Shown piece by piece: positions 42,338 to 44,427 of a stretch of 64,000 nt of DNA. The stretch covers positions 310,001-374,000 of the forward strand of contig CAIRYG010000011.1 in NCBI GenBank assembly GCA_903882745.1, given 5' to 3'. The notes under the pieces were generated by a model that saw nothing but the letters and a program-made list of their open reading frames with translations, was not told the origin of the DNA and made no database searches. The position numbers and the translations under genes were made by a program. Position 1 is the first letter of the stretch. The number at the start of each line of letters is the position of its first letter. The stretch is from an uncultured Gemmatimonadota bacterium (GTDB lineage: Bacteria; Gemmatimonadota; Gemmatimonadetes; Gemmatimonadales; Gemmatimonadaceae).

Positions 42338-42544
42338 TCAGGCGCTCGCCTTGGCGTACTTCTGGCGGAAGCGCTCAACACGGCCAGCGGTGTCGATAAG
42401 CTTCTGCTTGCCCGTGAAGAACGGGTGGCACTGGGCGCAGATGTCGAGACGGATCTCGTACTGCGTCGAGCGCGTCTCGAACGAGTTCCCGCAGGCGCAG
42501 ATGACCTTGGCGGTCGCGTACACGGGATGGATTTCGGGCTTCAT
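42338..42544 (-). CDS. rpmE: Large ribosomal subunit protein bL31, zinc-binding type
   Basis: The 68-aa L31 begins M-K-P-E-I-H-P and has two cysteine pairs, C-A-C and C-A-Q-C, as in the zinc-containing (C+) form. It heads the rpmE-prfA-prmC-ylbF-tmk-S41 run. I chose ATG 42544 because it matches the family start; an in-frame upstream ATG would add 13 non-conserved residues. A promoter was not clear, with TTGTTC and TACTAC upstream at an unfavourable 15-base spacing. Confidence 0.96.
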
Positions 42545-42730
42545 TTGAGCACCTCGGTAGTATTCAGGACTAGCCTCGAACAATAAGCGGCGTTGGCGCC
42601 TGAGGCAAGTCCGTTCGCTGTCCTGATTCCACTGCCCTCAGTGCCGCCCAGCCACGGGATTTGGGTGGGATTGGGCGGTCCCGAGGTCGGTGATGCGGGT
42701 CACAGCCAGAGCCGGAGCCCCCGCCCTACT

Positions 42731-42771
42731 TTGACAGAGGTGCTCCGGAGGCGTAACTTCGCCTCTGTCAA
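42731..42771 (+). promoter_or_regulatory. Strong promoter built into nested palindromes, upstream of the Crp/Fnr gene
   Basis: A consensus -35 TTGACA (42731-42736), 17-bp spacer and TAACTT (42754-42759) lie ahead of the regulator gene. The same bases form palindromes. TTGACAGAGG (42731-42740) is the exact inverse of CCTCTGTCAA (42762-42771). Inside this, GAGGCG (42748-42753) mirrors CGCCTC (42760-42765) with the -10 hexamer as the six-base centre. The predicted start of transcription (about 42766) falls in the right arm. This looks like an operator overlapping the promoter, probably autoregulatory. Confidence 0.75.
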
Positions 42772-42788
42772 CATCCTACCCCATTGCT

Positions 42789-43454
42789 GTGTCCTTTCTC
42801 GCCACGGTCCCCATCTTCAAGTCGCTCGACGCGGCCGAACTCGAAAAGTTCGGCGAGCTGTTGCGTGAGAAGAGTTACCCCAAGGGGAGCGTGATTCTGT
42901 TTGAGGACGACCGCGGCGACAGTCTCTTTGTCATTCGATCGGGGCGGGTCAAGGTCGTGTTGGTGGCCGAGGACGGGCGCGAAGTGATTTTGGGGATTCT
43001 CGGAGTGGGAGAACACTTCGGCGAGCTCTCGCTGATCGACGATCAGCCCCGCTCGGCACATGTGATTGCCATGGAGGACGCCACCCTGCTCGTGCTACGA
43101 CGCGACGATTTCCGTCGTCGCGTCGAGGCGAGCCCGGCGGTGGCCTGGTCGTTGCTCACCGAGCTGTCGCGTCGGCTGCGGCGCGCCGACGGGAAAATCG
43201 GCTCGCTCGTCTTGCTCGACGTGCCCGGCCGGATCGCGCGTATGTTGCTCGACTCCGCCGAGGAGAGCGGCGGGCCACAGATTGATAAGCCCATCACGCA
43301 TCAGACCATCGCGCAGGTGATTGGCGCGAGTCGCGAGACGGTGTCGCGGGCCATGCGCGGATTTCAGGATGCGGGGTGGATTGCCGTCGAGCGGCGCCGC
43401 ATCCGCCTCACCGATCCGGCCGCGCTCGAACGACGCGCCTTACAGCGAGGCTGA
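42789..43454 (+). CDS. Crp/Fnr-family transcriptional regulator
   Basis: The 221-aa regulator has an N-terminal cyclic-nucleotide-binding-like beta barrel (about 10-125, with G-E-H-F-G-E-L-S-L-I-D and P-R-S-A-H) and a C-terminal winged helix. The recognition helix is A-S-R-E-T-V-S-R-A-M-R near 178-188. The F-G-E-L-S and R-S-A elements resemble a cAMP-type phosphate cassette, so nucleotide binding is possible, and the FNR cysteines are absent. GTG start. It lies behind a palindromic promoter and ahead of an MBL-fold hydrolase gene. Confidence 0.92.
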   Translation: MSFLATVPIFKSLDAAELEKFGELLREKSYPKGSVILFEDDRGDSLFVIRSGRVKVVLVAEDGREVILGILGVGEHFGELSLIDDQPRSAHVIAMEDATLLVLRRDDFRRRVEASPAVAWSLLTELSRRLRRADGKIGSLVLLDVPGRIARMLLDSAEESGGPQIDKPITHQTIAQVIGASRETVSRAMRGFQDAGWIAVERRRIRLTDPAALERRALQRG

Positions 43455-43551
43455 CCGTGATTCCTCTTGCATCGCATCAGCGATTGGCGATCTTCCGCCT
43501 CTCGAGCCCCCACCGTGCGGACCTCCGCGGCGGTGTGACAAGGATTGATTC

Positions 43552-44427
43552 ATGACGTTACGGGTGACCTTCTGGGGCACGCGCGGGTCTATTGCGAGCC
43601 CCGGAGCGACGACGGTGCGCTATGGCGGCAACACGCCATCCATCGAACTGCGCACCGAAGCCGACTGGCTGGTGATTCTCGACGCGGGCACGGGGATTCG
43701 TGCGCTGGGCAACAAGCTGCTCGCGCAGGCCAACGGGAAGCTCATTGCGGGCGACATTTTTCTCACGCACGCGCACTGGGATCATATCCAGGGCCTCCCC
43801 TTCTTCGCGCCGATCTTTCAGGGCGGAAATCACTTTACGATTTGGGGCTCGGCTGCACTGCAGACGAGCATCGATCGCGTGGTGCGCGACCAGATGAACC
43901 CGGTCGTGTTCCCCGTCGCCTTTGATGACCTCAGCGCCTCGATTGATTTTCGGAAGATTCACGAGGGCGACGTCTGCACCGGCACCGGGTATGAGGTGAC
44001 GGCAATGGACGTGCAGCACCCCGGCGGGGCACTCGCGTACCGCTTTACCGAGACGGGACATTCCGATCGCGCATTCGTCTACGTATCGGATAACGAGCTC
44101 CAGCCGCACGAGCGGTACGGAACCCCCGCGGGATGGCGCGACAAGCTGGTGGCGTTCGCCCGGTCGGCGACCGTGCTGGTGCACGACACGACGTACACGA
44201 CCGAGGAATATGCGAGTCACCGCGGCTGGGGGCACTCGACCTACCGCGATGGTGTGGAGTTAGCGCTCGAGGCGGGAGTCGAAACGCTGGTGCTGTTTCA
44301 TCACGAGCCGCGACGCACAGACGACCAGCTCGACGCAGAGGTCGACGCCTGTCGGGCGATGGTGCAGGAACGTGGGGGCACATTGCAGGTGATGGCCGCC
44401 GCCGAAGGTCTCACACTGACGGTCTAA
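43552..44427 (+). CDS. MBL-fold metallo-hydrolase (RNase Z / class II phosphodiesterase-like)
   Basis: The 291-aa protein begins with F-W-G-T-R-G-S and R-Y-G-G-N-T-P-S, then I-L-D-A-G-T-G and the metal motif T-H-A-H-W-D-H, followed by later His residues (V-Q-H-P and V-H-D-T-T). This subgroup resembles RNase Z and cAMP-phosphodiesterase-like hydrolases rather than beta-lactamases. The substrate is unknown. AAGGA 8 bases upstream supports the ATG at 43552. Being next to a Crp/Fnr-type regulator invites a cyclic-nucleotide link, but nothing in the sequence proves it. Confidence 0.88.
   Translation: MTLRVTFWGTRGSIASPGATTVRYGGNTPSIELRTEADWLVILDAGTGIRALGNKLLAQANGKLIAGDIFLTHAHWDHIQGLPFFAPIFQGGNHFTIWGSAALQTSIDRVVRDQMNPVVFPVAFDDLSASIDFRKIHEGDVCTGTGYEVTAMDVQHPGGALAYRFTETGHSDRAFVYVSDNELQPHERYGTPAGWRDKLVAFARSATVLVHDTTYTTEEYASHRGWGHSTYRDGVELALEAGVETLVLFHHEPRRTDDQLDAEVDACRAMVQERGGTLQVMAAAEGLTLTV

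Follow-up and report, generated by a model that had tools for sequence, protein, structure and literature searches.

Nested dyads overlying a conserved promoter of a crp-like gene in Gemmatimonadota

The striking palindrome at positions 42731-42771 of the window (the whole stretch of DNA analysed, 64 kb at 65% G + C, from a Gemmatimonadota genome of 3.06 Mb) can be resolved into two layers, a promoter that is conserved and an overlay specific to the lineage. Judging from the orthologous loci, the conserved layer is an ordinary promoter of a crp-like gene; the two nested dyads are found in full only here and nearly in full in the closest relative. The reading we favour, with about even confidence, is CRP-type (auto)regulation from a box at about -70 acting on the conserved promoter, with the dyads as a lineage-specific, operator-like addition. 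The analysis also gives, for Gemmatimonadota, a local form of the promoter, TTGACA-N17-TAASTT, and a site likely to serve CRP-type control; in the open-access literature on this group, nothing on its promoters or Crp was found among the matches listed.

Gene neighbourhood and the conserved promoter

The 41-bp element is located between a divergent gene for ribosomal protein L31 (42338-42544, minus strand) and a gene for a 221-residue Crp/Fnr-family protein, a CRP/GlxR-type regulator with a cNMP-binding domain and HTH_Crp_2 (42789-43454, plus strand, GTG start). For the L31 gene, our reading of the sequence prefers the ATG at 42544 to the TTG given in the list, at 42583. The crp-like gene may be translated from GTG 42789 or, more unusually, from ATT 42783. 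This ATT aligns with the ATG start of the crp-like gene in the closest relative (locus L003, hereafter the sister). The 3' neighbour, a metallo-beta-lactamase-fold hydrolase gene (43552-44427, plus strand), is probably co-transcribed or co-regulated with the crp-like gene; in the sister only about 20-30 nt separate them. The hydrolase matched RNase Z and cyclic nucleotide-degrading phosphodiesterase models, all below cut-off. If it were a cyclic-nucleotide hydrolase, its place adjoining a CRP-like gene would make it a candidate for feedback.

The promoter consists of a -35 hexamer TTGACA (42731-42736) and a -10 hexamer TAACTT (42754-42759), both on the plus strand and separated by 17 bp. Compared with E. 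coli-type sigma-70 boxes at 16–18 bp, the -35 matches at 6 of 6 positions and the spacer is 17, but TAACTT agrees with the E. coli standard TATAAT at only 3 of 6, so that the term consensus promoter, used in the first-pass annotation, suits the -35 and not the -10. A generic promoter scan called no promoter at the element, being blind to it because of the -10 form. The relatives indicate that TAASTT is the local form of the -10.

Around these hexamers the dyads are arranged as follows. The outer left arm, TTGACAGAGG (42731-42740, plus strand), begins with TTGACA, and the outer right arm, CCTCTGTCAA (42762-42771, plus strand), overlies the predicted start of transcription at about 42766; the arms pair at 10 of 10 positions with 21 nt between them. 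The inner arms are GAGGCG (42748-42753, plus strand) and CGCCTC (42760-42765, plus strand), with the -10 box TAACTT (42754-42759) as their loop, and the two right arms have the 4 bp at 42762-42765 in common. As a description the first-pass annotation was exact in sequence and coordinates: a perfect 10-bp inverted repeat with TTGACA leftmost and its right arm on the predicted start, a -10 hexamer that is precisely the loop of a 6-bp inverted repeat, and bases shared between the dyads.

Orthologous loci were collected in two sets. For the first, 61 genomes were searched, 60 of which had a family match, and the best 30 loci were kept, one being that of the genome itself; the second comprised the best 80 of 89 loci from named Gemmatimonadota records. 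The resulting 110 loci were reduced to 108 and, after duplicate removal, to 101; 64 distinct crp promoter sequences were compared. Duplicates were removed by exact coding stretch, and a few near-duplicates may persist among the 101. Promoters were searched as TTGACA-N16-18-TAASTT with at most one mismatch per box (an earlier pass was looser, with 1 and 2 mismatches). Since such a search finds what it seeks, scrambled motif pairs were used as controls. The TTGACA/TAASTT pair was present upstream of crp in 68 of 101 loci, compared to 6, 0, 3 and 1 of 101 for the four scrambled pairs, which supports the promoter that had been placed ahead of the Crp/Fnr-family gene and shows it to be conserved in most relatives. 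TTGACA was exact in 57 of the 64 distinct promoters, and the 17-bp spacer was likewise found in 57 of 64. The -10 was mostly preceded by CG, with G as the commonest second base after it; in more distant relatives it reads TAAGCT. In another clade (L119, L145, L146 and L149) the crp -10 is followed by a near-constant initial transcribed region (GTTCGCGTGTCTGC).

The form is not restricted to crp. In 288 genomes of the order, TTGACA-N17/18-TAASTT occurred about 433 times and the reversed pattern about 47 times (hand sums), and in the genome studied it also precedes a gene read as dnaE from its translated start (L050). Given this conservation, RNA polymerase with the housekeeping sigma factor would be expected to use TTGACA-N17-TAACTT.

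Chance expectation and conservation of the dyads

Either dyad alone is unremarkable in such DNA. Perfect 10-bp inverted repeats with a gap of 3–40, overlapping ones included, numbered 27 in the window against a simulated mean of 8 (range 0–21), and 6-bp dyads with a loop of 6 numbered 31 against a simulated mean of 32. The nested combination was found once in the window, and 60 simulated windows of 64 kb yielded it a single time. When simulated promoters were anchored on TTGACA, the outer arm paired 10/10 in 3 of 400,000 (about 7.5e-6), the inner dyad 6/6 in 0.3%, and both together in 0 of 400,000. The geometry, described as far more regular than chance, is unusual as a nested combination but not as single dyads, and the site had been picked by scanning many.

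A genome search with both dyads had been suggested as a way to define a regulon, and none was found. Both the outer arm pair and the combined motif have a single occurrence in the 3.06 Mb of the genome. The arm TTGACAGAGG has four sites, two of which are the arms themselves; the other two (L171 and L172) have no partner arm within the next 50 nt. GAGGCG-N6-CGCCTC gave 2 sites, the same as its reversed control, and the extended dyad motif with 3 mismatches gave 2 against 5 in the control.

Conservation of the dyads upstream of orthologues, the lack of which had been named as grounds for refutation, is nearly absent; only the closest relative, with a CRP-like protein 91% identical, keeps both, with one mismatch in the outer dyad. 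The inner dyad pairs 6/6 in 2 of 64 promoters (the genome studied and the sister) and 5/6 in one (L080), and the outer dyad pairs 10/10 only in the genome studied and 9/10 in the sister, where the right arm reads CCTCAGTCAA. Over the whole set the inner pairing averaged 1.98 of 6 (2.28 in permutations) and the outer best pairing 5.23 of 10 (5.17 in permutations). An outer arm pairing at least 8 was seen in four promoters, those of the genome studied (L002), the sister, L004 and L080; this count exceeded permutation (fraction 0.005 with and 0.035 without the sister pair). The excess mildly favours the dyad; of the five permutation measures it is the only one to do so. The promoter of L080 (inner pairing 5/6 and outer 8/10, with the offset unchanged; its sequence is that of L176 in genome G155) was considered as a third case of the dyads and dropped, as L082 and L015, which partly share the L080 downstream sequence, lack a dyad.

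Between the genome studied and the sister, the spacer (17 of 17) and the 12 nt after the -10 (11 of 12) are identical at 28 of 29 positions. This is the highest value of 68 similarly diverged pairs, the next best being 23 of 29. Background identity of the pair is 82% in coding sequence and 50% at four-fold sites, and most of the intergenic sequence surrounding box and promoter block agrees at only about 35–50% of positions. This implies that the sister pair is constrained in something beyond the hexamers, an argument based on this single pair of species. Since constraint continues past the dyad (ACATCC), symmetry need not be its object, and the pair may instead be keeping an initial transcribed region. 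At the sole difference in the block, a base of the outer right arm, one pair is lost.

These data also bear on the view that the dyads have no function: a conserved promoter with a slightly symmetric CG-TAASTT-CG context, to which the rest of the symmetry was added by chance in the ancestor of the two species. The innermost two pairs of the inner dyad are already contained in that context. There is no family-wide dyad, as the permutation averages given above indicate, inner 6/6 pairing is confined to two promoters, the combined element has no second copy in the genome and dyads occurring singly are frequent in DNA of this kind. Against it stand the sister-pair identity, an outlier among the 68 pairs, and the very low joint chance per promoter. 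We regard this view as a serious possibility that nevertheless falls short of probable.

Given the unusual constraint on the 41-bp block in the two species that carry it, its simplest and most likely reading would be an operator. The nested dyads would then lie as an operator over the promoter, where a putative dimeric repressor would block RNA polymerase. The pattern TTGACA-N17/18-TAASTT-N6-8-GTCAA had 6 sites in the 288 genomes, 3 of them at crp, and its control had 0, with about 1 expected by a rough composition estimate given the approximately 433 promoters. This is a weak hint that promoters of the TTGACA/TAASTT kind carry the right arm above chance. Three non-crp sites in other genomes (L175, L178 and L179) read TTGACA ... 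TAASTT ... TGTCAA.

A CRP-type box upstream of the promoter

The product of the crp-like gene contains both a cyclic-nucleotide-binding domain (PF00027, E 2.4e-27) and a Crp-type HTH (PF13545, E 2.1e-21). With 112 bits it did not reach the cut-off of 266 of the NCBIfam CRP equivalog model; it is a member of the wider CRP family and is not assigned as a CRP equivalog. Of the solved structures that it matches over the full length, 4cyd and 4byy, which we take to be GlxR of C. glutamicum, and 3d0s, presumably CRP of M. tuberculosis, are among the closest. The HTH/recognition stretch GASRETV is common to the protein and 4cyd. From these similarities a site of the TGTGA-N6-TCACA type would be expected (PMC3972247 and PMC5449483). 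The GlxR site is given as TGTGA-N2-TA-N2-TCACA, and autoregulation of glxR is stated, in PMC3972247.

A putative site of this kind, GGTGA-TGCGGG-TCACA (GGTGATGCGGGTCACA), with 9 of 10 consensus bases, is present at 42689-42704. The sister keeps it as GGTGATGCCGGTCACA, with its spacing to the -35 unchanged and flanked by stretches that are only about 35–50% identical. Its centre would lie at about -70 relative to the predicted start, and as in class I promoters the box is upstream of the -35, 42 bp start to start in both species. In the relatives a box (at most one mismatch) was found within 180 nt after crp in 41 of 101 loci, compared to 0 of 101 for the control pattern, and there it precedes the metallo-hydrolase gene (seen in L004-L023). 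Within 190 nt upstream of crp it was found in 5 of 101 loci. Neither the genome studied (43455-43551) nor the sister has a CRP-type box downstream of crp. In the window the box pattern shows no significant excess (7, with 5 expected); the genome has 104 occurrences of GTGA-N6-TCAC where window tetramer frequencies, a crude estimate, predict about 58 (about 1.8-fold), and 16 of the reversed control where about 13 are predicted.

The box, its conservation and its spacing suggest that 42689-42704 is probably where the CRP-like protein binds, in class I geometry, and from where it would regulate its own gene and probably the metallo-hydrolase gene. The box may serve autoregulation of crp or regulation of the divergent L31 gene.

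Autoregulation, as put forward in the first-pass annotation, is thus plausible through this box; it is the dyads that do not suit it. On that view the CRP-like protein would bind the dyads and repress its own promoter. Autoregulation is frequent among such regulators, and that of glxR is stated in PMC3972247. However, the dyads lack TGTGA-type half-sites 6 bp apart: the TTGACAGAGG arms are 21 bp apart, the TTGACA/TGTCAA arms 31 bp centre to centre, and the inner dyad is GAGGCG-N6-CGCCTC. Moreover, a 9/10 CRP-type box is nearby, and nearly all orthologues lack the dyads though the protein is conserved. We consider binding of the CRP-like protein to the dyads very unlikely.

RNA structure and comparison with known systems

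The first-pass annotation also held that the two dyads could form alternative structures, as a two-state switch. This was not borne out: in the predicted minimum-energy fold the outer arm stays whole and is accompanied by a shifted inner helix, with no choice made between the dyads, and a start near 42766 would yield an RNA without either left arm. Nor were mutually exclusive, conserved structures found: only 4 bp are shared, and outside the sister both dyads are not conserved. A further possibility is that the element acts as RNA, a transcript from further upstream folding into a hairpin through which the crp-like gene would be controlled at translation. The RNA of 42727-42775 indeed folds at -20.2 kcal/mol (z -3.5), with 0 of 200 shuffles as good. 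However, the conserved promoter lies inside the element, which would place the beginning of the main transcript in the right arm; the predicted fold of RNA from 42766 is no better than that of shuffles (z 0.12), and the orthologues lack a conserved dyad. On these grounds the hairpin was set aside as very unlikely.

A more far-reaching form of the operator reading combines both layers. A new two-dyad repressor operator would have been laid over the old crp promoter, with the CRP-type box upstream of crp and not before the metallo-hydrolase gene, and the two genes would form one self-regulated, doubly controlled unit. We put this forward tentatively, as a rather unlikely extension.

Repressor operators can overlap the -35 and -10. 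The element resembles these in having a perfect dyad across the core promoter and the predicted start, and differs in having two nested dyads, in one sister pair only, with a regulator that is putative. With sigma-70-type promoters it shares TTGACA, the 17-bp spacer and a -10 that starts with TA and ends with T; this -10 is TAASTT (TAAGCT in more distant relatives) and not TATAAT. CRP/GlxR-type genes with a class I CRP box are alike in protein family, in a box of the TGTGA-N6-TCACA type, in its place upstream of the -35 and in possible autoregulation, whereas the box position here is reckoned from a predicted start, and many relatives have the box after the gene.
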